Assembly (NCBI GenBank): GCA_020433835.1
Contig: JAGRBY010000170.1
Coordinates: 1 to 12,339, forward strand
From: Anaerolineae bacterium
GTDB taxonomy: Bacteria; Chloroflexota; Anaerolineae; 4572-78; J111
Length of the DNA stretch: 12,339 nt
Reading direction: 5' to 3'
In this document: one piece after another, positions 2 to 12,339 of the stretch
Position numbering within the stretch: the stretch's first letter is position 1
Layout: each line of letters begins with the position of its first letter
Program-made: the position numbers and the translations under genes
The notes under the pieces: model-generated
The model's database searches: none
What the model was told of the DNA's origin: nothing
The model's input: only the letters and a program-made list of their open reading frames with translations

Positions 2-160
2 TTGGCGGGGTATGGTCTCGACCCGGTGCAACTGAGCCGGTTGAAAACGATGGTCGAGGCCCGGTATGCTGGCGAGCTGCCCCTCGCCCTCTTTGCCGGG
101 CAAGCCTCGGTGGTCATTGTGGCCCGGCACCTGGCTGCCCGTGCTGGAGACCAGGCCATT
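2..160 (+). other. Degenerate ACP-like segment lacking the phosphopantetheine serine
   Basis: Residues 1-53 align without gaps to the second half of ACP1 and ACP3 from the same protein. The attachment motif YGFDSLTL of ACP1 corresponds here to YGLDPVQL, with Pro (residue 8, codon at 23) in place of the modified Ser. Downstream helices match too: an RY pair, a Leu-Pro step, a Phe, and a terminal RHLAAR resembling RFLAEQ. Without Ser it cannot carry a 4'-phosphopantetheine arm. It runs directly into LD1, which lacks the usual IVLSA-type beginning seen in LD2 and LD3. It may be a decayed carrier domain, a recombination scar or a structural domain. The first half lies outside the window. Confidence 0.6.
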
Positions 161-3100
161 CCACAGCCACCGCTATCTTTGGCCAGTTTGGCCTATACCT
201 TGCAGGTGGGCCGGGAAGCGATGGAGGCCCGGTTGGCTCTGGTGGTCTCCAGTGGGGAAGAATTAGTTGAGCGGTTAACGCAGTACGACCAAAAGCAAGC
301 TTCGATGGCTTCGATGGCTTCGATGGCCTCGATGGCCTCGATGGAAGGTGTTTACCAAGGCACCACCAAGACCAACCAACAGACGGCAAACTTGTTAATT
401 GAAGGAGCGCCGGGCACCGCGTTTATCAAGGCCGTTGTTGATAATCAGGAATTGGAAAAGCTGGCTCAACTGTGGGTGGCGGGGGTTGAGATTAATTGGG
501 GTCTGCTGTACGGGACAAAGCAGCCGCGCCGCATATCGCTGCCAACCTATCCCTTTGCCCAAGAGCGCTATTGGCTGCCTAACAATGAACAATTAGCCAA
601 GAACAATGAACAAAACCTTTCTCCATTCTCCATTCTCCATTCTCCATTCTTATTGCATCCGCTGGTCCACCGGAATACCTCGACGCTGGAAGAGCAGTGT
701 TTCCGGTCCACCTTCACCGGGACCGAGTTCTTTCTAGCTGACCATCGGGTCCAGGGCAAGAAAGTGCTGCCGGGGGTGGCTCATCTGGAAATGGCTCGGG
801 CCGCCGGCGCACTGGCCCTCGAAGATCTCCCCGTGTCTCGCCTCAAGGAGGTGGTCTGGCTTCGGCCCTTGGTGGTTGATGAGGCGGTGGAGGTACAGCT
901 TGGCCTCTATCCGGCTGAGAGCGGGGAGATTGCCTTTGAGGTCAGCAGCAGCGGACTGGTTCACAGCCAGGGCAAGCTGGCCGTCAGCCAGGCCGCCGCC
1001 CCCGAACCGCTCGATATCCCTGCCATCCAAGCCCGTTGCCAGACCACGGTGGCGGGGGCAGATGTCTACGCCCGCTTTGAGGCGATCGAGTTAAAGCTTG
1101 GCCCCGCTTTTCGAGGGCTGATCCAGCTCAGCTACAACGAGGCGGAAGTGTTGGCCCAACTGCGGTTGCCGGCCGGAGTGGATCAAGAAGGGTATCACCT
1201 CCCTCCCAGTCTGCTGGATGCGGCTTTACAAGCGACGGTGGGGTTGAAGATGAGTCACGGGGCTGAAGGGCAAAGCCTTCAACTGCCCTTTGCCGTGGAA
1301 GCCGTTAACCTATACGGGGAAGTGCCGGCGAAGGGCTATGCCTACGTCAGATACAGCCCGGGGGGAGAATCAGCTAGCAATGCAGTCAAATATGACGTTA
1401 CCCTGACGGATGACCAGGGCGGGGTCTGTGTCGCCCTCCGGGGCTTTTCGGCCCGGGCGGTGGTTGGGCCGGTTGAGCCGGAGCTTCTCTACAGCGCCCC
1501 GGACTGGCAAGTCAAGCCTCTGGTTGAAGGTGAGGCTGACCCAAGCGCGGCGCAAACGGAGACGACGCTGCTGCTGGTCGGCCTGGATCAAGATGTGGTT
1601 GAGACTCTCGCCACGTCCTTCGAGCCGGTCAAGGTTATTGCCCTGGACTCGACCGACGTGACAAAGCTAGTCCGGCAGAGTTGGTCTTATCTCAAGGCGA
1701 TTTTCGAACAGACAGGCGCTAAAGCAGCCCACCACATCCTGGTAGTAGTAGCCGCCGACAGCCTGGCGCGGCATCAGTACGCGCCGCTGGCCGGTTTGCT
1801 GAAGACAGCTCGGTTGGAACAGCCTAACTTCCAGGGCAAAGTCATCAGCGCGGCTAACCTCCATACGGACAGGCTCATCTCCGTGCTTCGCCGGGAGATG
1901 AAACCGAACCGGTTCCAGGACACGGACGTATGGTATGACGAAACCGGCAGTAGACAGGTCAAGGTCCTGCGCGAGCTAAAGCTCACGACGCCAGAGCAGG
2001 GGAGCTATCTTAGACCAGACGGGGTGTACTGGCTGACCGGCGGATTGGGCGGCCTGGGACGCATTTTCGCCCGCTACTTGCTGGAGCAGGGAGACAACAT
2101 CACCCTCATCCTGAGCGGCCGGTCGGCGCTGGATGAGGCCGGCGAGCAGCAGTTGGCGGAGCTACATCAGCTCGGCGGCACGGTGGCTTATCTCCCCGTC
2201 GATGTCAGCCTGAAGGCCGAGGTAGAGCAGGCGGTGCAAACCATCACCGCGCAGTACGGCGCACTGAACGGTCTCATTCACAGCGCCGGGGTCGTTCGAG
2301 ACAGCTTCATCCTTAACAAAACCGAAGCAGAGCTGGAGGCGGTGCTGGCGCCCAAAGTAAGCGGCCTGCTCAACCTCGATGAAGCCACCCAGGCTGAGCC
2401 GCTTGATTTTGTGGTCCTGTTCTCCTCCCTGGCCGGAGTGCTGGGTAACCTTGGTCAGGCCGATTATGCCGCGGCCAATGCCTTCCTGGATGCCTTTGCT
2501 CAGCATCGGCAAGCTCTGGTCGAGGCTGGTCAGCGCTCCGGCAGGACCTTGGCCATCAACTGGCCGCTCTGGGCGGAGGGCGGAATGACGGTCGCTGAGC
2601 AGAGCCTGATCTTGATGGAGCGTCAAACCGGGCTGTCGGCCTTGCCCACAGACGTAGGTCTGCAAGCCTTTGAGACCGTGATGGCTTCAACTCACAACCA
2701 AGTCTTGATCGCCGCCGGAGCGCTCGAAACCCTCAGGCACAAATTATTGACCGGGCCGCTGACACCGACCGCTCCATCACCGGCGATGGAGCAAGATACC
2801 GCTGATAACCCGTTGCTAGCGGAAAAGACTCAGGCGGCCTTGACCCAATTGGTGTCGACGGTCCTCAAAATCAAGGTTGAAGACCTTTCGGGCTACAAAA
2901 GGCTGAGCGAGTACGGCTTTGACTCGCTCACCCTGACCGAGTTGGCCAATAGGCTCAACGACCGCTATCAGTTAGCCTTGATGCCAACCATTTTCTTTGA
3001 ACACAACACCCTGGCCTCGCTCAGTCGCTTCCTGGCCGAGCAGCATGCCGATGTTTTGGCCGCGCATTTTCACGCCCAATCAGAAACCAAAACGGTCGCC

Positions 3101-6100
3101 GCACCGCAGGGGGTTCCCTCACCCAAACCTATTGCCAAATCGCGTTTTCGCTCCGCCCCTCACCCCCAAAGTAGCCGTCGCCCGCTTCAGCCGGAACCGG
3201 TAGCCATCATCGGGATGAGCGGCCGGCTGCCAGGCTCGCCCGATTTAGACACCTTTTGGCAGCACCTCATCACCGGCACAGACCTAATTAGCGAAATCCC
3301 GCCCGACCGCTGGGATTGGCAAGCCTACTACGGCGACCCGTACAGCGAAACCAACAAAACCCGGGCCAAGTGGGGCGGCTTCATTGAGGATGTCGACAAG
3401 TTCGATGCCGCCTACTTCAAAATCTCCCCCCGTGAAGCCGAGCTGATGGACCCCCAACAGCGCCTCTGGCTGCAAACCGTTTGGCACACCATCGAGGATG
3501 CCAGCTATGCGCCCAGCCTGTTGGCCGGCTCCCTGACCGGTATCTTTGTCGGCGTGGCCACCCATGATTACCAGGAGTTGCTACTCAGCCAGCGGCCTGA
3601 CCTCCACCCGCACAGTGCCACCGGCATGAGCCACTCCGTTCTGGCCAACCGCAGTTCCTATCTGCTCGACCTCCACGGTCCCAGTGAAGCGATTGACACC
3701 GCCTGTTCCAGTTCCCTGGTGGCCATCCATCGGGCCGTCGAAGCCCTCCACAGCGGCAGTTGTCACCTGGCCATTGCCGGCGGGGTCAACCTGATCCTGA
3801 CCCCCCAATTGCACCTGGCCTTCAGTCAGGCCGGCATGCTGGCCGAAGATGGTCGCTGCAAGTCCTTCGACCACCGCGCCAACGGCTATGTCCGGGGCGA
3901 AGGGGTCGGCGCTATTTTCCTTAAACCGCTGGCTCAGGCCGAAGCTGATGGTGACCATATCTATGCTGTCATTCGGGCCACGGCCGAGAACCACGGGGGG
4001 CAAGCTACGTCCTTGACCGCCCCTAATCCCAAGGCTCAGGCCGACTTGCTCATCAAAGCCTATCAGCAGGCCAACATCGACCCGGCCACGGTCGGCTACA
4101 TCGAAGCCCACGGCACCGGCACCGCGCTGGGCGACCCGATTGAAATCAACGGCTTGAAGCAGGCCTTTGCCCAACTGTATCAACAGTGGTCCAAGACTAT
4201 GCCCACCCAACCCCACTGTGGGCTAGGCGCGGTCAAGACCAACATCGGCCATCTGGAAACCGCAGCCGGCATCGCCGGGATACTGAAGGTGCTGCTGGCC
4301 CTCAAACACCAGACCCTGCCGGCCAGCATCAACTTCGAGCAACAGAACCCCTACATCAATCTGGACAACAGCCCCTTCTACCTGGTGACCGAAACCCAGG
4401 CCTGGCAGCCGCTGCAGAACGAGACCGGGCAGCCGTCACCCAGACGCGCCGGCGTCAGCTCCTTTGGTTTTGGCGGGGCCAATGCCCACATCGTGCTGGA
4501 GGAGTATCAGGAAATAGGGAGCCGGGAGCCGGGGGCAGGGGGTGGACAGCCACAGGTGATTGTGCTGTCGGCCAAGGATGAGGAACGACTGAGAGCATAT
4601 GCGCAAGCCCTACTGGCCTATGTGGAGGCCAATTCGGATGGTTCTTTGCCTGAGCTGGCTTACACTTTGCAGGTGGGTCGAGAGGCGATGGACGCCCGGC
4701 TGGCGGTGGTGGTCTCCAGCCTCGATGAATTGGTTGAACGGTTGCGTCAGTACGACCAAACGCCAACCGCCATTGAGCATTTCTACGTCGGCAACGCTAC
4801 TATTAGCCCCCACAAATCTGCGCTACGGCTGGGCGGAAACCCCGGAAAAGCCTTTATCAACGCCGCCCTGGCCGAGCGAGACTTCGCGCTGCTGGCGCAA
4901 CTGTGGGTGGCGGGAGTTGAGGTGGACTGGACTCAGCTGTACGGCGCAGAAACGCCGCACCGGATATCATTACCGACCTATCCCTTTGCACGCAAACGGT
5001 ATTGGGTTGACGCCCAATCCAAACCTGCTCAGCATCGGGGCAACGCATTAAATCAGCTACGAGATCCGGGCGTTTCGCTCGTCGATCCTAATCACGTGAG
5101 CGAGGCTGAAACCAGGCCAGCCTTGGCTACGCGGATAAGATTGAAACCACCCACAGCGGTTCTCAGCAATGGCCCCGTTGAGGAAACACCGTCCCACAAT
5201 GCAGCAAAAGATAATCATCCGACCTTCCAGAGCAAAAGTGAGCGCCCCCCTCTTACCCGGGATCCGGACCTGGGTGAATACAAGCCCCAGACAGCGGTGG
5301 TCCAATCAGTTCAGCTCGCGCCGGATCTGCCGGCAGGCAAAATCAAAGCAATCGTCCAGCAGACGGTGGCTGAGGCCCTGTACCTAGCGGCGGACGAACT
5401 TGATGAAAATAAGCGATTTTTTGACTTAGGGCTGGACTCTATTTTGGGAGCAGAGATTATCAGTACCTTGACCGAACGATTAGGGCTGAAAATTTCCGTC
5501 AGCAAGCTCTATGAATATTCCTCGGTCAAAGAACTGGTTGATTATCTGATCGGCTTGGTCAGAACCAGTCCCACCTTACCGGCCAGGTCCGAAGGTCGCG
5601 ACGAACCGGTCGAACAACGCGGGGCAGAAGCTACAACGATGCCGCCATCAACGATACCCGGTCAGGCTCAGTTGGAGGTGCCAGATTATCGGCGAGCTTA
5701 TTCTATTGAAAGCAGGGGGAGTCTGTCAGCAAAAACAGACATTGTGGAGGAGTTCGATCTGGATGGTGAAGCGGATCTATGCCTGCGGGATCATCGGCTT
5801 TACGGCGAACAGTTGATGCCGACAGATAGGTATCTGGAGTTGGTTTATCAGGGGGTCAAGCGCCTGTTCGGCTTTGCCTCGGTCAGCCTCAGCCAGGTTC
5901 ATCTCGTCAACCCTCTGATTGTCGGTGTCGGCCAAACAAGGCGGATTCGGCTTAACTATCGCCGCGCCGAGGCTTCGCTTCATTTTACCATCTCCAGCGC
6001 CGCCTCAACTTCAGATGCGGATTTCAGGCTACATGTCAAAGGCGACATCCAGGCGATAGCGGTCCAACCGATCAAAAATGAGGTTTACCAGGCCTACTGG

Positions 6101-9100
6101 AACGATTACGAGCAGCAATTTGGTGATGCAGCTGTTTATGACGGCCTCAGTCACTTGACCCAGTTAGGCCCTTTCTATCAGACCATAAAGGTGTTGACCT
6201 TAAAAGGAAACGTCGCTATCAGTCAATTGGCGTTATCATCGGTTGCCAGCCAAGTGCGGGATGAATTTTCGTTGAACCCGGCCATTGTGAATGGTTTGTT
6301 GGTCACCGCCTTGACCTTTGCCCGGCGCCTAACGGGAATAGAGACGGGGGTCTTTCTGCCGACCTTAATTGACCAGGTCTTGATTTATCAAGCGTTGGCC
6401 GATGAAATGTATACGGGCCTGGTTGAGCTGCGAGAAGTCAAAGAGAATGGGGTAAAATTTGATGCAGAGCTTATCGATAGTGCCGACCGGGTTGTCCTCT
6501 CGCTGCAAGGCTTACAAGTAAAGCATATTACTGAAGCCGAATTTAGAACCAAGTTGATGCCCCTGAAATCGTCCGAAGATAATCGTACCGATCATCAGTC
6601 ATCCGAAGCCACGGTTCATATGAACTCTCTGCCAACATCTCCCTCTGAGCCGACGCCCTCTCGGACAGAGGACAAGATCGCTATCATCGGGATGTCGGGC
6701 CGATTTCCAGGAGCCAAAACCCTGGCTGAGTTCTGGGACAATCTGACCGGCGGGGTTGACTCGATCACCGAGATCCCCTCATCTCGCTGGGATGCAGCTC
6801 GCTACTATGCGCCTGATAGGCAACTGACCGGCAGAACCTGTAGCAAATGGGGCGGTTTCTTGGAAGATATCGACTGCTTTGATGCGGCCTTTTTCAATAT
6901 CTCGCCGCTGGAAGCGGAGCAGATGGATCCCCAGCAGCGACTGTTTCTGGAAGCCTGTTGGACGGCGCTTGAGGATGCCGGGTATGCTCCCTCGGCGCTG
7001 GCACGGGTCAAGTGCGGCGTATTTGTCGGAGCTAGTGTCAGTGACTACGGTCAGGCCTTGCAACAGGTAGGTTTGGCCCATACCGCTCAGGCCTTTATGG
7101 GTTTGAACCCCGCTATTCTGGCCGCTCGCATCGCCTATTTCTTGAACCTGACAGGGCCGAGCATCGCTCTGGACACGGCTTGTTCCTCGTCCTTGGTGGC
7201 CATTCATCAGGCTTGCCAGAGCCTGCGCCAGGGCGAGAGTGACCTGGCTCTGGCCGGGGGAGTAGCTTTGATGGTCACCCCTCAGCTGCATATCAAGACC
7301 AGCCAGGCGATGATGCTCTCGCCAACGGGTCGCTGCCGGCCCTTTGACCAGCAGGCCGATGGCATTGGTCTGGGCGAAGGGGTGGGGGTGGTGGTCCTGA
7401 AGCCCTATGCGGCCGCCATCCGGGATAAAGACCCGATCTATGGCGTTATTCTGGGGTCGGGCATCAATCAGGATGGGCGCACCAACGGCATCACGGCCCC
7501 GAATGGGCAATCGCAGCGAGAGTTAGCCATTCAGGTTTACAAAACAGCCCACATCAATCCGAGCACGATTAGTTATGTCGAGGCTCACGGCACAGGCACC
7601 CGGCTGGGGGATCCAATCGAGATCGATGCCCTCACTGAAGCGTTCAGGCAATTTACAACTGAAAAAGGCTACTGTGCTATTGGGTCGGTCAAGAGTAACA
7701 TCGGCCATACGACCATGGCCGCCGGTGTCGCCGGGCTGATTAAGGTTCTTCTGTCGTTCAAGCACCACCAACTTCCCCCATCTATCAACTTTGAGCAGGC
7801 CAACGACCATATCAACTTTGCCGACACCCCTTTTTATGTAACTACCGAACTTCAGGATTGGCCGGCCAAAGATAATCAACCGCGTCGAGCCGCCGTCAGT
7901 TCCTTTGGCTTTAGTGGCACCAATGCTCATCTGGTGGTTGAGGCGTATCAGGATCAGGGCTTAGGGTTCAGGGTTCAGGATTCAGGGGCCGGACCGCAGT
8001 TGATCGTGCTGTCGGCTAAGAACGAGGATCGGCTCAGGGATTATGCTCAGAAACTACTGACCTATCTTGAGGCCAATTCGGATGTTTCCTTGGTGAGCCT
8101 GGCCTACACTTTGCAAGCCGGTCGAGAGGCGATGAAGAGCCGGCTGGCTCTGGTGGTAGCAACACCGGCAGAGTTGCGAGACAAGCTAACCTATTATCTG
8201 GCAAACAAATCAGACCTACTGGGTATTTATCAAGGCCATCTCAAAGCCGATAAAGCACGGCTCGACCTGCTCACCGAGGGCGATGAGGCCAAAGTCTTTG
8301 TCGAGCTGCTCATCAAAAATGGTAAGCTGGAAAAGTTGGCTCAACTATGGGTCTCTGGGATCGAGATTGAGTGGACGTTGTTATACCCCAATTACACTCC
8401 CCGCCGGATTTCGTTACCAACCTATCCCTTTGCCCGAGAACGATATTGGCTGCCAAGCAATGAACAATTAGCCAGGAACAATGACCAAACCCATTCACAA
8501 TTCACAATTCACAATTCACAATTCACAATTCACAATTCACAATTCAGATTGCATCCTTTGGTTCACCAGAATATCTCTGATTTAGAAGAGCAGCGCTTTA
8601 GTACCATCTTTACCGGAGCTGAGTTCTTCCTGAGTGACCATCGGGTCCAGGGGGAGAAAGTACTGCCGGGGGTGGCCTATCTGGAAATGGCTCGGGCTGC
8701 CGGAGAGCTGGCGGTTAGAGGGCAGGTTGTGACCCAGATTAAGGATATGGTCTGGGTCCGGCCGCTGGTGGTCAAGGATGAACCGCTGGAAACTCAGCTC
8801 AGTCTCACCCTAACCGAGAGTAGTGAAGTGAGCTACGAGGTCAGAACCCTCGACGACGAGAGACAGCCAGTTGTTCATAGCCAGGGCAAGCTGGTCGTGG
8901 GGGAGGTGGGAGAGGAGACCCACATCATCGACTTGGGGGCAATCCGGCAGCGTTGCCCGGAGACGAAAACCGGGAAGGGGTGTTACCAGCATTTTAATCA
9001 GCGAGGAATGGCCTATGGCCCCACGTTTCAAGTCATTGAGGAGGTAGTGGGGAATAAGAGGGAAGCGTTGGCCCGGCTGCGGCTACCAGCTGGGGTTGGC

Positions 9101-12100
9101 AGCGAGGCATATGGCCTGCATCCCAGCCTGCTGGATGGGGTACTGCAAAGCGTGATTGGGATCATGGATGACAGCCGTCAACCGTCAAAAATGTATCTGC
9201 CCTTTGCGGTGGAGGCGGTCAACATCTATAAGGCGTTGCCGAAGGAGGGATACGCCTATGTGCAGTACAGCGCTGAGGTGGAGCCAAGTGAGACAGTCCT
9301 GACCTATGACCTCAGGTTGACCGATGAACAGGGAGAGGTCTGTGTATCCTTACAGGGCTTGACGCTGCAGGCGATATCTGAACCCACTCAACCCAGTCTT
9401 CTTTACAGCACCCCGGACTGGCAACTCAAGCCGCTGGCGGAAGGTGAGGCTGACCCCAGCGAGGCGAAAAGGGAGACTATGCTGCTGCTGGTTGGCCTGG
9501 ACCAGGCTGTCATTGAGACCCTCCGCACCACCTTCGACCAGACCAGACTCATCATGTTGGATCCGACCCAGGCCACAAGCTTGGTGCAGCAGGTCTGGCC
9601 CCATCTCAAGGCTGTTGTCGAACAGAAGGCTAAGACAACGCACCATATCCTGGTAGTGGCCGCGGACAGCGTGGAGCGATATCAGTACGCGCCGCTGGCC
9701 GGTTTGCTGAGGACAGCCCAACTGGAACAGCCGAACGTTCAGGGCAAGGTCATCACGGTTACAAACCTCACCACAGATAGGCTAATCGCTTTGATAGGTC
9801 GAGAGATGAGATCGGACAGTTTTCAAGATGCGGAGGTGCGGTATGATGCAGCCGGAACCCGAACGGTCAATACCCTGCGCGAGCTTGCGGTCAATGCTCT
9901 GGAGAAGACAACCTACCTCAAACCGGGTGGGGTGTACTGGATTACGGGTGGGCTGGGCGGATTGGGCCGCATTTTCGCCCGGCACTTGTTGGAGCAAGGC
10001 GACAACATCACCGTCATCCTGAGCGGTAGGTCGGCGCTAGATGAAGCCGGCCAGCAGCACCTGGCCGAGTTGAACGGGCTGGGCGGAACGGTGGTCTATC
10101 TCTCCGCTGATGTCAGTCTAAAGGCAGAGGTAGAGCGGGTGGTACAAACCATACGAGCAGAGTACGGCCGCCTGAACGGCATCATCCACAGCGCCGGGGT
10201 TATCCGAGACAGCTTCATCCTCAACAAGACCGAGGCGGAAATCGAAGCGGTGCTGGCTCCCAAGGTGAGTGGCCTGCTCAATATCGATGAAGCCACCCAG
10301 AACGAGGAGCTTGATTTTGTAGCGCTTTTTTCCTCCATTGCCGGAGTGCTGGGCAACATTGGCCAGGCCGACTATGCCGCAGCCAATGCCTTCTTGGATG
10401 CCTTTGCTCAACACCGTCAAGGATTGGTCGAGGCGGGTCAGCGCTCGGGCCGGACGCTGGCCATCAACTGGCCGCTTTGGACTGAGGGCGGGATGAGGGT
10501 TGATGACCAGAGCCTGACCTTGATGAAGCGCCAAACCGGGATGACCCCGCTGTCAACAGAAGTTGGCCTGCATGCCTTTGAGACTGTGATGGCTACGAAT
10601 CAGACGCAGATTTTGGTCGCCCCCGGCCAAGTGGATACACTCAGACAACGGCTGCTGGCCGAGGGGCAGAGGCCGGCAACACCCAACTCGGCCCAGAAGC
10701 TACATAGCAACGACATCCAGTTGCTGGCGGCTAAAGTCCAGGCAGAGCTGACCCAGACGGTATCAGCAGTCCTGAAGATCAAGGCCGAAGAGCTGGCTGA
10801 GGATGAAACACTGAGCGAGTATGGCTTTGACTCCATCACCCTGACCGAGTTGGCCAACCGGCTCAATGACAACTATCAGTTAGCGTTGATGCCAACCCTC
10901 TTCTTTGAGTACAACACCTTGGCCTCGCTCGGTCGTTACCTGGCCGAGCATTATTCAGACGTTTTAAGATCGCATTTTCAACTTAAATCAGAAGCCAGAC
11001 CCGCTGCTTTACCGATGATTAAGCCGCCTCCAAAACCTATCGCCAAGTCTCGTTTTCGGTTTGGGGCCAACCCAATTAGCCGGTCGGTTCAGCCGGAACC
11101 GGTGGCCATCATCGGAATGAGTGGGCGACTGCCAGGCTCACCAGACCTGGAGACCTTCTGGCAGCAGTTGGTAGATGGACAGGACCTGATCCGCGAAATC
11201 CCGTCAGGCCGCTGGGACTGGCGCGTCTATGACGGCGACCCGTCCAGCGAAACCAACAAACCCCAGGTCAAGTGGGGTGGCTTTATTGATGATGTGGATA
11301 AATTCGATGCCGCTTTCTTCAAAATTTCACCCCGTGAAGCGGAGTTGATGGACCCCCAACAGCGTCTCTGGCTGCAAACAGTCTGGCACACCATCGAAGA
11401 TGCCGGCTATGCACCCCGCCAGTTAGCCGGCACGCGGACCGGTATTTTTGTCGGGGTGGCCACCAACGATTATCAGGAGTTACTGCGAACACATCGGAAT
11501 GACACTGAAGCCCATGCTGCCACCGGCTTGAGCCACTCGGTGCTGGCCAACCGCATTTCCTATTTGCTCGATTTGCACGGTCCCAGTGAGCCTATTGATA
11601 CCGCCTGTTCCAGCTCGCTGGTGGCCCTCCATCGGGCGGTTGAAGCCCTCCACAGCGGCAGTTGTGAATTGGCTATTGTCGGCGGGGTCAACCTCATCCT
11701 GACCCCCACAAATCACATGGTTTTCAGCAAAGCCGGGATGTTATCGGAAGATGGGCGCTGCAAGACCTTTGACCAGCGAGCCAATGGCTATGTCCGGGCT
11801 GAAGGGGTGGGAGCTATTTTTCTGAAGCCGTTGACCCAGGCCGAGGCGGATGGCGATCAGATCTACGCTGTTATCCGAGGCACGGCCGAGAACCACGGCG
11901 GCCAGGCCACTTCTCTCACTGCGCCCAACCCGAAGGCGCAGGCCGACTTACTCGTCAGAGCCTACCAGCAAGCGAACATCGACCCAGCCACAGTCGGCTA
12001 CATTGAGGCCCATGGCACCGGGACCGCGTTGGGCGACCCGATTGAGATCAACGGCTTGAAGCAAGCCTTTGCCATGCTGTATCAGCAGTGGGACAAGGAA

Positions 12101-12339
12101 GTCCCAGCCGAGCCGCACTGTGGCCTTGGCTCAGTTAAGAGCAACATCGGTCATCTGGAAGCGGCGGCCGGCATTGCTGGGGTACTGAAGGTCCTGTTGG
12201 CCCTCAAACACCGGACCCTGCCCGCCAGTATCAACTTCGAGCAGCAGAACGCCTACATCGACCTAGATAACAGTCCGTTTTATCTGGTGACCGAAAATCG
12301 GCCCTGGCCGTCGCTACTGAATAAAGCGGGACAACCAAC
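2..12339 (+). CDS. Interior of a giant trans-AT modular polyketide synthase (partial at both ends)
   Basis: One open frame runs from base 2 to the window edge without a stop, about 4,112 codons, so both the true start and end lie outside. Domains in order are ACP-like remnant, LD, DH, KR, ACP, KS, LD, ACP, DH-like, KS, LD, DH, KR, ACP, KS. No GHSxG-type acyltransferase is present. After each complete KS comes only a short linker domain ending in a YPFAxxRYW-like motif, as in trans-AT synthases, so malonyl units must come from a separate AT protein. All three KSs keep the Cys-His-His triad, both KRs keep Lys-Ser-Tyr-Asn, and three ACPs keep the DS attachment site, so the line looks functional. 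It should act as a cytoplasmic homodimeric assembly line. No signal peptide or membrane segment was seen. The product cannot be identified from this fragment. Internal Met codons are not convincing starts because domain homology continues across them. Confidence 0.97.
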   Translation, partial: MAGYGLDPVQLSRLKTMVEARYAGELPLALFAGQASVVIVARHLAARAGDQAIPQPPLSLASLAYTLQVGREAMEARLALVVSSGEELVERLTQYDQKQASMASMASMASMASMEGVYQGTTKTNQQTANLLIEGAPGTAFIKAVVDNQELEKLAQLWVAGVEINWGLLYGTKQPRRISLPTYPFAQERYWLPNNEQLAKNNEQNLSPFSILHSPFLLHPLVHRNTSTLEEQCFRSTFTGTEFFLADHRVQGKKVLPGVAHLEMARAAGALALEDLPVSRLKEVVWLRPLVVDEAVEVQLGLYPAESGEIAFEVSSSGLVHSQGKLAVSQAAAPEPLDIPAIQARCQTTVAGADVYARFEAIELKLGPAFRGLIQLSYNEAEVLAQLRLPAGVDQEGYHLPPSLLDAALQATVGLKMSHGAEGQSLQLPFAVEAVNLYGEVPAKGYAYVRYSPGGESASNAVKYDVTLTDDQGGVCVALRGFSARAVVGPVEPELLYSAPDWQVKPLVEGEADPSAAQTETTLLLVGLDQDVVETLATSFEPVKVIALDSTDVTKLVRQSWSYLKAIFEQTGAKAAHHILVVVAADSLARHQYAPLAGLLKTARLEQPNFQGKVISAANLHTDRLISVLRREMKPNRFQDTDVWYDETGSRQVKVLRELKLTTPEQGSYLRPDGVYWLTGGLGGLGRIFARYLLEQGDNITLILSGRSALDEAGEQQLAELHQLGGTVAYLPVDVSLKAEVEQAVQTITAQYGALNGLIHSAGVVRDSFILNKTEAELEAVLAPKVSGLLNLDEATQAEPLDFVVLFSSLAGVLGNLGQADYAAANAFLDAFAQHRQALVEAGQRSGRTLAINWPLWAEGGMTVAEQSLILMERQTGLSALPTDVGLQAFETVMASTHNQVLIAAGALETLRHKLLTGPLTPTAPSPAMEQDTADNPLLAEKTQAALTQLVSTVLKIKVEDLSGYKRLSEYGFDSLTLTELANRLNDRYQLALMPTIFFEHNTLASLSRFLAEQHADVLAAHFHAQSETKTVAAPQGVPSPKPIAKSRFRSAPHPQSSRRPLQPEPVAIIGMSGRLPGSPDLDTFWQHLITGTDLISEIPPDRWDWQAYYGDPYSETNKTRAKWGGFIEDVDKFDAAYFKISPREAELMDPQQRLWLQTVWHTIEDASYAPSLLAGSLTGIFVGVATHDYQELLLSQRPDLHPHSATGMSHSVLANRSSYLLDLHGPSEAIDTACSSSLVAIHRAVEALHSGSCHLAIAGGVNLILTPQLHLAFSQAGMLAEDGRCKSFDHRANGYVRGEGVGAIFLKPLAQAEADGDHIYAVIRATAENHGGQATSLTAPNPKAQADLLIKAYQQANIDPATVGYIEAHGTGTALGDPIEINGLKQAFAQLYQQWSKTMPTQPHCGLGAVKTNIGHLETAAGIAGILKVLLALKHQTLPASINFEQQNPYINLDNSPFYLVTETQAWQPLQNETGQPSPRRAGVSSFGFGGANAHIVLEEYQEIGSREPGAGGGQPQVIVLSAKDEERLRAYAQALLAYVEANSDGSLPELAYTLQVGREAMDARLAVVVSSLDELVERLRQYDQTPTAIEHFYVGNATISPHKSALRLGGNPGKAFINAALAERDFALLAQLWVAGVEVDWTQLYGAETPHRISLPTYPFARKRYWVDAQSKPAQHRGNALNQLRDPGVSLVDPNHVSEAETRPALATRIRLKPPTAVLSNGPVEETPSHNAAKDNHPTFQSKSERPPLTRDPDLGEYKPQTAVVQSVQLAPDLPAGKIKAIVQQTVAEALYLAADELDENKRFFDLGLDSILGAEIISTLTERLGLKISVSKLYEYSSVKELVDYLIGLVRTSPTLPARSEGRDEPVEQRGAEATTMPPSTIPGQAQLEVPDYRRAYSIESRGSLSAKTDIVEEFDLDGEADLCLRDHRLYGEQLMPTDRYLELVYQGVKRLFGFASVSLSQVHLVNPLIVGVGQTRRIRLNYRRAEASLHFTISSAASTSDADFRLHVKGDIQAIAVQPIKNEVYQAYWNDYEQQFGDAAVYDGLSHLTQLGPFYQTIKVLTLKGNVAISQLALSSVASQVRDEFSLNPAIVNGLLVTALTFARRLTGIETGVFLPTLIDQVLIYQALADEMYTGLVELREVKENGVKFDAELIDSADRVVLSLQGLQVKHITEAEFRTKLMPLKSSEDNRTDHQSSEATVHMNSLPTSPSEPTPSRTEDKIAIIGMSGRFPGAKTLAEFWDNLTGGVDSITEIPSSRWDAARYYAPDRQLTGRTCSKWGGFLEDIDCFDAAFFNISPLEAEQMDPQQRLFLEACWTALEDAGYAPSALARVKCGVFVGASVSDYGQALQQVGLAHTAQAFMGLNPAILAARIAYFLNLTGPSIALDTACSSSLVAIHQACQSLRQGESDLALAGGVALMVTPQLHIKTSQAMMLSPTGRCRPFDQQADGIGLGEGVGVVVLKPYAAAIRDKDPIYGVILGSGINQDGRTNGITAPNGQSQRELAIQVYKTAHINPSTISYVEAHGTGTRLGDPIEIDALTEAFRQFTTEKGYCAIGSVKSNIGHTTMAAGVAGLIKVLLSFKHHQLPPSINFEQANDHINFADTPFYVTTELQDWPAKDNQPRRAAVSSFGFSGTNAHLVVEAYQDQGLGFRVQDSGAGPQLIVLSAKNEDRLRDYAQKLLTYLEANSDVSLVSLAYTLQAGREAMKSRLALVVATPAELRDKLTYYLANKSDLLGIYQGHLKADKARLDLLTEGDEAKVFVELLIKNGKLEKLAQLWVSGIEIEWTLLYPNYTPRRISLPTYPFARERYWLPSNEQLARNNDQTHSQFTIHNSQFTIHNSQFRLHPLVHQNISDLEEQRFSTIFTGAEFFLSDHRVQGEKVLPGVAYLEMARAAGELAVRGQVVTQIKDMVWVRPLVVKDEPLETQLSLTLTESSEVSYEVRTLDDERQPVVHSQGKLVVGEVGEETHIIDLGAIRQRCPETKTGKGCYQHFNQRGMAYGPTFQVIEEVVGNKREALARLRLPAGVGSEAYGLHPSLLDGVLQSVIGIMDDSRQPSKMYLPFAVEAVNIYKALPKEGYAYVQYSAEVEPSETVLTYDLRLTDEQGEVCVSLQGLTLQAISEPTQPSLLYSTPDWQLKPLAEGEADPSEAKRETMLLLVGLDQAVIETLRTTFDQTRLIMLDPTQATSLVQQVWPHLKAVVEQKAKTTHHILVVAADSVERYQYAPLAGLLRTAQLEQPNVQGKVITVTNLTTDRLIALIGREMRSDSFQDAEVRYDAAGTRTVNTLRELAVNALEKTTYLKPGGVYWITGGLGGLGRIFARHLLEQGDNITVILSGRSALDEAGQQHLAELNGLGGTVVYLSADVSLKAEVERVVQTIRAEYGRLNGIIHSAGVIRDSFILNKTEAEIEAVLAPKVSGLLNIDEATQNEELDFVALFSSIAGVLGNIGQADYAAANAFLDAFAQHRQGLVEAGQRSGRTLAINWPLWTEGGMRVDDQSLTLMKRQTGMTPLSTEVGLHAFETVMATNQTQILVAPGQVDTLRQRLLAEGQRPATPNSAQKLHSNDIQLLAAKVQAELTQTVSAVLKIKAEELAEDETLSEYGFDSITLTELANRLNDNYQLALMPTLFFEYNTLASLGRYLAEHYSDVLRSHFQLKSEARPAALPMIKPPPKPIAKSRFRFGANPISRSVQPEPVAIIGMSGRLPGSPDLETFWQQLVDGQDLIREIPSGRWDWRVYDGDPSSETNKPQVKWGGFIDDVDKFDAAFFKISPREAELMDPQQRLWLQTVWHTIEDAGYAPRQLAGTRTGIFVGVATNDYQELLRTHRNDTEAHAATGLSHSVLANRISYLLDLHGPSEPIDTACSSSLVALHRAVEALHSGSCELAIVGGVNLILTPTNHMVFSKAGMLSEDGRCKTFDQRANGYVRAEGVGAIFLKPLTQAEADGDQIYAVIRGTAENHGGQATSLTAPNPKAQADLLVRAYQQANIDPATVGYIEAHGTGTALGDPIEINGLKQAFAMLYQQWDKEVPAEPHCGLGSVKSNIGHLEAAAGIAGVLKVLLALKHRTLPASINFEQQNAYIDLDNSPFYLVTENRPWPSLLNKAGQP
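170..577 (+). other. Linker domain LD1 (KS-to-AT-type linker of a trans-AT module)
   Basis: This is the small structural domain that follows a KS when the AT is supplied in trans. It contains LAYTLQVGREAMEARLALVV near residues 64-83, then a variable middle, then LAQLWVAGVEINW and the end motif SLPTYPFAQERYW (residues 179-191). The same landmarks recur in LD2 and LD3. It is unusual in two ways: the N-terminal IVLSAK strand is missing and replaced by the ACP-like segment, and the variable middle contains five Ala-Ser-Met repeats. It is followed by a heptamer-derived linker and DH1. Confidence 0.85.
299..344 (+). repeat. Five-copy 9-bp tandem repeat encoding (Ala-Ser-Met)5
   Basis: Five units of CTTCGATGG (the last two CCTCGATGG) run from 300 to 344 and encode Ala-Ser-Met five times (residues 100-114). 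The unit is a multiple of three, so copy-number change would lengthen or shorten the linker without shifting the frame. It lies in the variable middle of LD1. The equivalent positions of LD2 and LD3 have no such array. Confidence 0.95.
581..648 (+). repeat. Composite 7-bp tandem repeat at the LD1/DH1 junction
   Basis: Bases 581-615 read as five degenerate 7-mers related to AACAATG, including an exact 10-base repeat (AACAATGAAC at 581 and 602, 21 bp apart). They are followed by four perfect CTCCATT units at 621-648. The encoded linker shows a 7-residue period (NNEQLAK, then NNEQ) and then SPFSILHSPF. It sits between the YPFAQERYW end of LD1 and the LHPLV start of DH1. The homologous junction at 8456-8546 has the same degenerate part but a different perfect 7-mer. 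Seven bases is not a multiple of three, so single-unit change would alter the frame. Confidence 0.93.
653..1465 (+). other. Dehydratase domain DH1
   Basis: A double-hotdog dehydratase that removes water from a beta-hydroxyacyl-ACP to give an alpha,beta-unsaturated thioester. It begins at LHPLV (residue 218). The HxxxGxxxxP motif reads HRVQGKKVLP with catalytic His at residue 248. The second-hotdog motif is SLLDAALQ with catalytic Asp at residue 406. The usual YGPxF element is LGPAF here (residue 366). The length of about 270 residues is normal. It lies between LD1 and KR1 and should work on the hydroxyl made by KR1 on ACP1. All catalytic residues are present, so I expect it to be active. Confidence 0.93.
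1484..2740 (+). other. Ketoreductase domain KR1 (B-type)
   Basis: An NADPH-dependent short-chain-dehydrogenase-type domain reducing the beta-keto group on ACP1. It begins at LLYSAPDW (residue 495) with a structural subdomain, followed by the catalytic half with the nucleotide-binding motif TGGLGGLG (residues 679-686). Catalytic residues are Lys785 (LAPKVSG), Ser809 (FSSLAG), Tyr822 and Asn826 (DYAAANAF). GVVRD keeps the Asp (residue 767) at the diagnostic second-Asp position of B-type KRs, and the A-type Trp eight residues before Tyr is Leu, so a D-configured hydroxyl is predicted. The KR2 sequence at 9398-10650 is highly similar. Confidence 0.93.
2837..3050 (+). other. Acyl carrier protein ACP1
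   Basis: The carrier domain of the first DH-KR module. The phosphopantetheine site is in YGFDSLTL with Ser at residue 975 (codon at 2924). It is followed by LANRLNDRYQ and MPTIFFEHNTLASL, a carrier type repeated almost exactly in ACP3. It is joined to KS1 by a linker of about 45 residues containing PKPIAKSRFR, also present before KS3. It presents the enoyl intermediate made by KR1 and DH1 to KS1. Confidence 0.94.
3188..4507 (+). other. Ketosynthase domain KS1
   Basis: A thiolase-fold condensing domain that extends the chain by decarboxylative Claisen condensation. It starts at EPVAIIGMSGRLPG and ends at SSFGFGGANAHIVLEEY. The triad is complete: Cys1235 (DTACSSS), His1370 (EAHGTGT) and His1417 (TNIGHLE). 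It contains ENHGGQATSLTAPNP and YLLDLHGPSEAIDTACSSS, typical of trans-AT KSs. It is very similar to KS3 along its length and clearly different from KS2. KS1 and KS3 both follow a DH-KR-ACP block, which fits the known tendency of trans-AT KSs to group by the incoming substrate, here probably an enoyl chain. One difference is ANRSSY where KS3 has ANRISY. Confidence 0.96.
4517..4541 (+). repeat. Short G-rich 7-bp repeat at the KS1/LD2 junction
   Basis: Two perfect GGGAGCC units (4517-4530) are followed by the related GGGGGCA and a further G run. They encode a Gly-rich linker (IGSREPGAGGG) between the KS1 end motif and the IVLSAK start of LD2. The same junction after KS2 (7956-7983) carries a different 7-mer. 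It is short, so it is the weakest of the arrays. Confidence 0.7.
4556..5005 (+). other. Linker domain LD2
   Basis: The post-KS linker of the KS1 module. It opens with IVLSAKDEERLRAYAQALL, continues with LAYTLQVGREAMDARLAVVV and LAQLWVAGVEVDW, and closes with SLPTYPFARKRYW. At about 150 residues it is far too short to contain an AT, which is direct evidence for AT action in trans. Instead of a DH it is followed by a disordered-looking linker and ACP2. Confidence 0.9.
5006..5338 (+). other. Low-complexity interdomain linker between LD2 and ACP2
   Basis: About 110 residues with no recognisable domain, rich in Pro, Gln, Ser, Thr, Asn and charged residues and poor in long hydrophobic stretches. 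The frame stays open throughout and no promoter, terminator or RNA gene was seen. It probably acts as a flexible tether. It stands where the other modules have DH and KR, consistent with loss or absence of those domains in this module. Confidence 0.7.
5339..5563 (+). other. Acyl carrier protein ACP2, different in type from ACP1 and ACP3
   Basis: The carrier domain of the non-reducing KS1 module. The attachment motif is FFDLGLDSILGAEII with Ser at residue 1813 (codon at 5438), followed by LGLKISVSKLYEYSSVKELVDYL. This pattern (GLDSI, then GLxI and LYxYxxxxEL) resembles the carriers used in beta-branching in trans-AT systems. However, the Trp typical of those ACPs, seven residues after Ser in the remembered consensus, is Ile here, so a beta-branching role is only a possibility. 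It differs strongly from ACP1 and ACP3 (YGFDS, MPTxFFE), showing a separate origin. Confidence 0.92.
5741..6535 (+). other. DH-fold domain with catalytic Asp replaced by Asn, placed after an ACP
   Basis: This region follows the DH pattern end to end. DHRLYGEQLMP keeps the HxxxGxxxxP motif (His1931). VHLVNPLIVG matches the strand VVWLRPLVVD of DH1. LGPFYQTI matches YGPxFQ (residue 2055). LNPAIVNGLL aligns with LHPSLLDGVLQ of DH2 and puts Asn2097 where the catalytic Asp should be. An intact His with Asp lost is, from family knowledge, a trait of DH-like domains that shift double bonds or close pyran rings, and of structural DH-like folds such as branching domains. The order ACP, DH-like, KS is also unusual, since DHs normally precede their ACP. 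Parts are visibly AT-richer than neighbouring KS code. The exact function cannot be decided from sequence alone. Confidence 0.72.
6536..6673 (+). other. Ser/Thr/Pro-rich linker before KS2
   Basis: About 45 residues with many Ser, Thr, Pro and Glu between the DH-like domain and KS2. A Met codon occurs at 6620, but there is no frame interruption and no clear ribosome-binding sequence, so a new gene start here is not supported. It lacks the PKPIAKSRFR motif found before KS1 and KS3. Confidence 0.65.
6674..7950 (+). other. Ketosynthase domain KS2, of a different sequence type from KS1 and KS3
   Basis: A condensing domain starting at KIAIIGMSGRFPG and ending at SSFGFSGTNAHLVVEAY. The triad is intact: Cys2394 (DTACSSS), His2529 (EAHGTGT) and His2569 (SNIGHTT). 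It differs from KS1 and KS3 at many diagnostic spots: GINQDGRTNGITAPNGQSQ instead of AENHGGQATSLTAPNPKAQ, IGHTTMAAGVAG instead of IGHLETAAGIAG, and GFMGLNP-like text around residue 2365 instead of ATGMSHS. It receives the product of the KS1-ACP2-DH-like unit, so its distinct type supports an unusual incoming substrate, possibly branched or still bearing a beta-keto group. Confidence 0.95.
7956..7983 (+). repeat. Four-unit 7-bp repeat at the KS2/LD3 junction
   Basis: The units are AGGGCTT, AGGGTTC, AGGGTTC and AGGATTC, followed by AGGGG. They encode QGLGFRVQDS between the KS2 end motif and the LIVLSAK start of LD3. The position is equivalent to 4517-4541 after KS1, but the unit is different. 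If one unit were gained, translation would stop at TAA 8017. If one were lost, it would stop at TGA 8001. Confidence 0.9.
8000..8449 (+). other. Linker domain LD3
   Basis: The post-KS linker of the KS2 module. It reads LIVLSAKNEDRLRDYAQKLL, then LAYTLQAGREAMKSRLALVV, then LAQLWVSGIEIEW, and ends SLPTYPFARERYW. It is about 150 residues with no AT. Its second half and the following junction match LD1 and the LD1/DH1 junction closely, marking the second copy of the duplicated module. Confidence 0.9.
8456..8546 (+). repeat. Composite 7-bp tandem repeat at the LD3/DH2 junction, seven perfect ATTCACA units
   Basis: Degenerate 7-mers AGCAATG, AACAATT, AGCCAGG, AACAATG and ACCAAAC occupy 8456-8490. 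Seven perfect ATTCACA units follow at 8493-8541, with a partial unit to 8546. Three units make 21 bp, so the protein carries a repeating heptapeptide, SQFTIHN, between LD3 and DH2. The degenerate part matches 581-615, but the perfect unit differs from CTCCATT there. The plus-strand array is open in all three frames. One extra unit would bring translation to TGA at 8578, and one fewer to TAG at 8583, both directly after the array. Confidence 0.97.
8549..9370 (+). other. Dehydratase domain DH2
   Basis: A double-hotdog dehydratase of the KS2 module, starting at LHPLV (residue 2850). The HxxxGxxxxP motif is HRVQGEKVLP with His2880, YGPTF is at residue 3005, and SLLDGVLQ carries catalytic Asp3045. 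It closely resembles DH1, about 7.9 kb upstream, and has no missing catalytic residue. It should dehydrate the hydroxyl made by KR2 while the chain is on ACP3. Confidence 0.93.
9398..10650 (+). other. Ketoreductase domain KR2 (B-type)
   Basis: An NADPH-dependent ketoreductase. It starts at LLYSTPDW (residue 3133) and has TGGLGGLG at residues 3315-3322. Lys3421 (LAPKVSG), Ser3445 (FSSIAG), Tyr3458 and Asn3462 are all in place. GVIRD keeps the B-type Asp (residue 3403), and the A-type Trp position is Leu. It should give a D-configured hydroxyl that DH2 then removes. Stretches are almost identical to KR1 in both protein and DNA, for example APLAGLL and AINWPLW, supporting recent duplication or gene conversion. 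Confidence 0.93.
10742..10955 (+). other. Acyl carrier protein ACP3
   Basis: The carrier domain of the KS2 module. Its site YGFDSITL has Ser at residue 3611 (codon at 10832), followed by LANRLNDNYQ and MPTLFFEYNTLASL. It is nearly the same as ACP1 and unlike ACP2. A linker with PKPIAKSRFRF leads to KS3, as between ACP1 and KS1. Confidence 0.94.
11096..12339 (+). other. Ketosynthase domain KS3 (truncated by the window end)
   Basis: A condensing domain starting at EPVAIIGMSGRLPG. It has Cys3869 (DTACSSS), His4004 (EAHGTGT) and His4051 (SNIGHLE), so the full triad is present before the window ends, shortly before the C-terminal FGFGGANAH motif. It is highly similar to KS1, including AENHGGQATSLTAPNP. 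It should accept the enoyl chain from ACP3 and begin the next module outside the window. Confidence 0.95.

Follow-up and report, generated by a model that had tools for sequence, protein, structure and literature searches.

The window, that is, the whole 12,339-nt stretch of DNA under analysis, is taken up by one very long PKS gene. Pfam searches of the window identified three KS, three LD (PF22336/PF22621), three ACP and two KR domains, in addition to three DH or DH-like domains, in the module order LD-DH-KR-ACP-KS / LD-ACP-DHlike-KS / LD-DH-KR-ACP-KS. No acyltransferase family was found by Pfam in the window; a free-standing AT would lie outside the window's view. A KS followed by an LD, with no integral AT, is the arrangement that we take to characterise trans-AT PKSs, and the predicted domain content of the window gene fits this class. 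The features referred to below are as follows.

2..12337, + strand: single open frame of 4112 codons, stop-free from the first bases and open at the 3' end
575..655, + strand: LD-DH linker 1, paralogous to linker 3, 27 codons long; its array, (TTCTCCA)4.6, spans 619-650
7954..7987, + strand: TCAGGGT array of 4.9 copies (81% match), within the KS-LD linker belonging to the module that holds the ATTCACA array
8006..8206, + strand: LD domain before the ATTCACA array (PF22336, RhiE-like KS-MAT linker)
8450..8551, + strand: LD-DH linker 3, 34 codons, with the ATTCACA array inside; nearly all of this linker falls where the structural model has low confidence
8552..9388, + strand: DH domain after the array (PF21089 and PF14765)
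8578..8580, + strand: TGA met after gain of one unit (or loss of two)
8583..8585, + strand: TAG met after loss of one unit (or gain of two)

Linker 3 carries the array (ATTCACA)7 followed by ATTCA, in which seven perfect units occupy positions 8493-8541 of the + strand and the partial unit extends to 8546, giving a perfect period-7 run of 54 nt (TRF: 8493-8546, score 108, 7.7 copies, 100% match). The first-pass annotation had correctly counted seven perfect units but placed the start of the array at 8456, 37 nt too early. Its description of a repeating heptapeptide linker holds, since the array is translated as SQFTIHN-SQFTIHN between LD and DH, three units (21 nt) corresponding to seven residues. 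The frame consequences that it predicted were likewise reproduced in silico: addition of one unit leads to the TGA at 8578 and removal of one to the TAG at 8583, while changes of three or six units in either direction leave the frame open. The array has the sequence properties expected of a contingency locus, namely a unit length not divisible by three, a position inside coding sequence and premature stops in the other frames, and its perfect tandem 7-bp units are equally as expected of dispersed heptanucleotide SSRs. The off-frame stops lie 32-37 nt 3' of the array. The idea that they are suspiciously close was rejected, because such nearness is ordinary in this gene: at 848 of 3913 codon positions of the window (21.7%), each of the two other frames has a stop no more than 42 nt away. 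One block-shuffled copy of the window contained no perfect array of period 3-12 at the thresholds used, and chance is not a credible source of the ATTCACA array. A role for RNA structure was also discarded: the 111-nt region around the array folds no better than shuffled sequences (z 1.97 and 1.51 for the two strands), and for the array alone no fold was found.

Structural comparisons place the array, which comprises residues 198-215 of a 490-residue query, between domains. Among PDB matches, most of those to KS-LD chains stop at query residues 184-190, and most of those to DH chains start at 216-217. An AlphaFold2 model built with a 30-row alignment gave pLDDT values below 50 at residues 167-216 and above 90 over most of the DH; since the KS was left out of the model, part of the low pLDDT may reflect missing contacts. 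The array is accordingly predicted to encode a disordered linker between LD and DH.

Among the best 120 of 1477 proteins matched in a protein search, those closest to the region included P0001 (51%), P0002 (55%) and P0019 (50%), all from named Anaerolineae MAGs, and P0011 (61% over 81% of the region), and no second strain was found among these 120. A second protein search added P0126 (60% over 78%), labelled as a Gammaproteobacteria MAG. A tblastn comparison revealed no relative among 45 pattern matches in genome contigs. The PKS probably derives from an Anaerolineae-type member of the Chloroflexota. Of the related genomes G210 is the closest; it has a size of 9.8 Mb, belongs to the same class as G006 (represented by locus L064, an Anaerolineae MAG) and gave 52 matches in all, the best at 61, 57, 56 and 58%. 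Its complement of trans-AT PKS genes is unusually large and comprises 15 or more LD-DH modules (loci L154-L176 and L219-L226).

The two LD-DH linkers of the window were compared with those of G210, giving 17 typical linkers (two in the window, 15 in the G210 contigs analysed). The exact (ATTCACA)3 motif is absent from G210, whose linkers display differing heptamer motifs, including AATGAAG, ATTCTCC, ATTCGCC and ATTCATC. A scan in any frame for junctions between the end of an LD and the start of a DH yielded 17 same-frame and no different-frame pairs. Off alleles were thus seen neither here nor among the homologous linkers, as judged from the consensus sequences of the window and a single relative. 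The best autocorrelation lag (of 2-12) was 7 in 16 of the 17 linkers, with values of 0.32-0.71, several of them being weak (0.32-0.46). The exception is the 57-nt linker of L157 (IPGAGDRSPIQASRREKGL), in which the best lag is 6, the lag-7 value is 0.26 and there is no period-7 signal. For the 16 linkers other than L157, the mean lag-7 value was 0.521 vs 0.274 after codon shuffling (z 17.3). Of the 19 other linkers that follow an LD (or AT) in the same contigs, lag 7 was best in one, that of L222, which leads into a cut-off DH 145 nt from a contig end; the 19 also include an atypical LD-to-DH-like junction in L220, with no lag-7 signal. A spurious L219 row of the LD-DH scan, with internal stops (97 residues), was not counted. 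Presumed cis-AT linkers from other genomes of the class gave 0 of 13. KS-LD linkers share the period (10 of 15 have their highest value at lag 7, z 10.2) yet show no length steps, indicating that a frame filter is not always marked in lengths. Two further observations concern individual linkers. In the last 145 nt of L222 (minus strand, end of G210 contig C455), an LD is followed by a heptamer-like linker that leads directly into the middle of a DH start motif, as though the DH N-terminus had been removed; this may be an artefact of the contig end. The linkers before DH in L162 and L152 contain a short palindromic element of the CCTTCGACTxxGCTCAGG type in frame, and a similar peptide occurs in P0023.

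The lengths of the 17 LD-DH linkers are 12, 19 (seven linkers), 20, 26 (four), 27 (three) and 34 residues, which represent only two classes modulo 7, class 5 (12 linkers) and class 6 (5 linkers), i.e. steps of seven residues with a one-residue offset. All seven classes were filled by 360 control linkers of other proteins, a set that includes the Chloroflexota proteins P0007 and P0031. An 18-20-residue baseline is common in all taxa and explains part of the class pattern. Among linkers of at least 24 residues, 11 of 12 focal linkers (omitting P0023 and P0217 as more distant) fell in the two classes, vs 8 of 30 controls (Fisher p 1.6e-4), and with one sequence family collapsed the focal count was 8 of 9 (p 1.5e-3). 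The single exception among the 12 is the 28-residue linker of P0126; the repeat-like linkers of the more distant P0023 (21, 36 and 36 residues) also depart from the rule. The first-pass annotation had regarded differences of only three units as a pattern that would speak against switching. That pattern was nearly observed, in the form of two length classes out of seven, among paralogous modules in consensus assemblies, with the distant P0126 and P0023 deviating.

When linkers 1 and 3 of the window are aligned, a single gap opens, of exactly 21 nt. The two are near-alike outside the array; within it, four aligned units share the same two substitutions (ATTCTCC vs ATTCACA). Such concerted change is what array-internal slippage or conversion would be expected to produce, and the comparison of the paralogous sequences shows turnover of heptamers.

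The occurrence of the motif in other genes and genomes was then considered. (ATTCACA)4 is present in at least 120 stretches of genome contigs. When 123 arrays of at least four units were taken (from 120 listed loci and the window), an upstream frame of at least 100 codons reached 39 of them; the longest frame after the array was the same one in 22, no 100-codon frame followed in 12 (some at contig ends or natural gene ends), and the longest frame differed in 5 (L120, L102, L042, L006 and L035). Pfam analysis of 23 array-bearing open frames placed a family across the array, or families on both sides of it, in 13, and ATTCACA is in frame in proteins of the MetH, PurL, UvrD, AMP-binding and carbamoyltransferase types. 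A special link between the motif and the PKS gene was therefore rejected, the motif being dispersed and in frame in unrelated genes; its presence in frame in housekeeping genes (MetH, PurL) means that an intragenic position alone implies no switch. Clear frame breaks were seen in two of the five differing cases, both of them Chloroflexota genes. In the CydD-like gene of L120, the match to the CydD model covers positions 8-311 in one frame and resumes at 315-529 in another, the array marking the junction, and two relatives without such an array have both CydD parts in one frame; as the contig is titled with a coverage of 1.43, a sequence error is possible. In the HdrA-like gene of L102 (NCBIfam HdrA match weak, E 9e-6), the array at 4701-4734 lies in a stretch of 119 nt vs 51 nt in its paralogue L261, an excess of 68 nt that is not a multiple of three and puts the gene out of frame. 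The L261 counterpart has period 7 (0.64) with another motif, and no PDB match was obtained for the downstream piece of L102. L042 looks like a gene end. The breaks in L120 and L102 indicate that off alleles may arise.

At the genome level, three-unit matches numbered 5-44 per genome (overlapping matches counted) in 13 of 13 Chloroflexota genomes picked through a locus found in them, with none for the reversed control, and were present on both strands in 12 of the 13. Across the class, 25 of 396 genomes had a match, nine of them by construction, being known beforehand. The commonest perfect tandem period (3-12) in sampled DNA was 7, both in G210 (8 of 11 arrays) and in G009 (16 of 23). Other occurrences were noted in passing: two very long neighbouring ATTCACA arrays in a Bacillota MAG (L013, 4169-4417), an ATTCACA array near a CGCCCCT heptamer array in L120 (1431-1482), where the transmembrane and ATPase parts are in different frames, and three matches in a search of viral_contigs.

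STRR sequences are heptanucleotide repeats of cyanobacteria, and the present array resembles these, GGGAATC of Xanthomonas and TAACTGA of the Beggiatoaceae in its 7-bp units and, to judge from related genomes, probably also in the recurrence of such units at many loci per genome. Unlike those dispersed repeats, for which the accessible portions of the literature stress intergenic sites, here homologous linkers of one enzyme family are filled with differing motifs. A 7-bp unit within a PKS gene also has a counterpart in pks15/1, where the indel has a consequence for the reading frame. The accessible part of PMC1501019 describes it as a GGGCCGC indel polymorphism of the M. tuberculosis complex with independent deletion events, and not as a switch, so the first-pass remark that no case inside a modular PKS was known calls for care; pks15/1 differs, however, in having two units only, deletions and no array, as opposed to seven units in the present gene. 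For the TAACTGA repeats, tolerance between the subunits of modular proteins has been suggested (MacGregor 2015; PMC4679880, accessible part). The hmw1A/hmw2A repeats of Haemophilus influenzae, reported in 13, 16 and 38 copies (PMC2651432, accessible part), share 7-bp units with the PKS array but lie upstream, in promoters, and so do not act through the reading frame. A close parallel is neuO of the E. coli K1 prophage CUS-3, in which, according to the portion of PMC13001214 that could be consulted, coding-region AAGACTC repeats permit a full-length product if their number is divisible by three and range from 3 to 53 (20 being commonest) across 64 genomes, 42 of them with off genotypes. Both arrays are intragenic, with three units equal to seven codons and the frame set by unit number modulo 3. 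Unlike neuO, with repeats in the 5' region, mostly 20 units and many off genotypes, the present array has seven units deep in a PKS linker, and in contrast to 42 of 64 off, all 17 homologous PKS linkers are in frame. Heptameric repeats are described as over-represented in bacteria and little studied in the available part of PMC4692102; that of PMC4060949 contained nothing on heptamers. Among the matches listed, titles and abstract starts of open PMC papers contained no report of heptamer arrays in PKS linkers or of PKS phase variation by them.

Taken together, these data suggest that the array is quite probably a young, slip-prone heptanucleotide microsatellite that the flexible LD-DH linker tolerates and whose length is filtered by the reading frame. 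In this view, such genomes are dotted with heptamer arrays of many motifs, which survive in floppy parts of proteins; 7-bp units would be gained or lost, and the motif homogenised, by slipped-strand mispairing; off-frame products would truncate the synthase and, through selection against such alleles, fail to persist. Over evolutionary time linkers would then come to differ by three units (21 bp, seven residues), their content being otherwise nearly neutral.

An on/off switch at the PKS array is possible. The mutational part of the earlier phase-variation proposal stands, given the long, perfect, frame-breaking array and the heptamer turnover among paralogues; its switching part found no support. 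That the locus is a true contingency locus, at which slippage reversibly toggles the synthase and the resulting mixture is useful to the population, as at neuO, nevertheless appears unlikely. The seven perfect units of a length not divisible by three, the stops shortly downstream, the precedent of a coding-region heptamer (PMC13001214, as far as accessible), the repeated slippage suggested by the same changes in several units and the off-frame arrays in the CydD-like L120 and HdrA-like L102 would all be accommodated by it. However, the 17 of 17 in-frame linkers would arise with a probability of 8e-9 under random phase, or 1.3e-8 at the neuO on-rate of 22/64, in both cases treating as independent linkers that, as paralogues, are not fully so. 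Moreover, the array lies deep within a huge gene and not near its start, has fewer units than the 20 commonest at neuO, and consists of a motif that also occurs, without breaking the frame, in genes of the MetH, PurL and UvrD-like types, among others. A related and likewise rather unlikely reading, if marginally easier to entertain, is that nearly every LD-DH linker is a present or past slip-prone array, giving one assembly line many independent frame switches, with off-frame lineages that survive and revert. Here the product would be dispensable, which would allow such lineages to survive and revert and would maintain a standing mixture of full-length and truncated synthase; the seven-residue length steps would then be a fossil of switching.

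Selected tuning, in which heptad number sets LD-DH spacing and module activity and arrays are retained because they supply in-frame length variants, seems improbable. It would account for lengths of 12-34 residues in seven-residue steps, and earlier work cited in the consulted part of PMC13001214 found that neuO repeat length raises catalytic activity. Against this, period and frame alone are conserved, and not sequence or motif; other proteins likewise show loosely constrained lengths (13 to 43 residues in 218 linkers, most 14 to 21); and the KS-LD linkers, despite their period of 7, lack length steps. An assembly or sequencing artefact in unit number can be given hardly any weight: one out-of-frame case (L120) does come from the low-coverage contig, but usual sequencing reads are longer than the 54-nt array, and the frame runs open through it for 4112 codons.

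If slip-prone microsatellites are indeed filtered by reading frame in this way, their slippage would be one way in which modular synthases acquire linkers of different lengths, and the signature of seven-residue steps with lag-7 DNA could be searched for in other multidomain proteins. The linkers of 12 to 34 residues constitute natural variants for PKS engineering, and the arrays provide an inexpensive means of testing giant biosynthetic genes for hypermutability.

Two minor features of the window were also recorded. A 9-bp repeat, GCTTCGATG, is present in 5.1 copies at 299-344, shortly after the first LD profile match, where it codes for (ASM)n and keeps the frame at any unit number. The DH-like domain at 5732-6541, which follows an ACP, gave a weaker Pfam match and has Asn in the second DH motif, at a position where Asp is usual; it is perhaps an isomerase-type DH.
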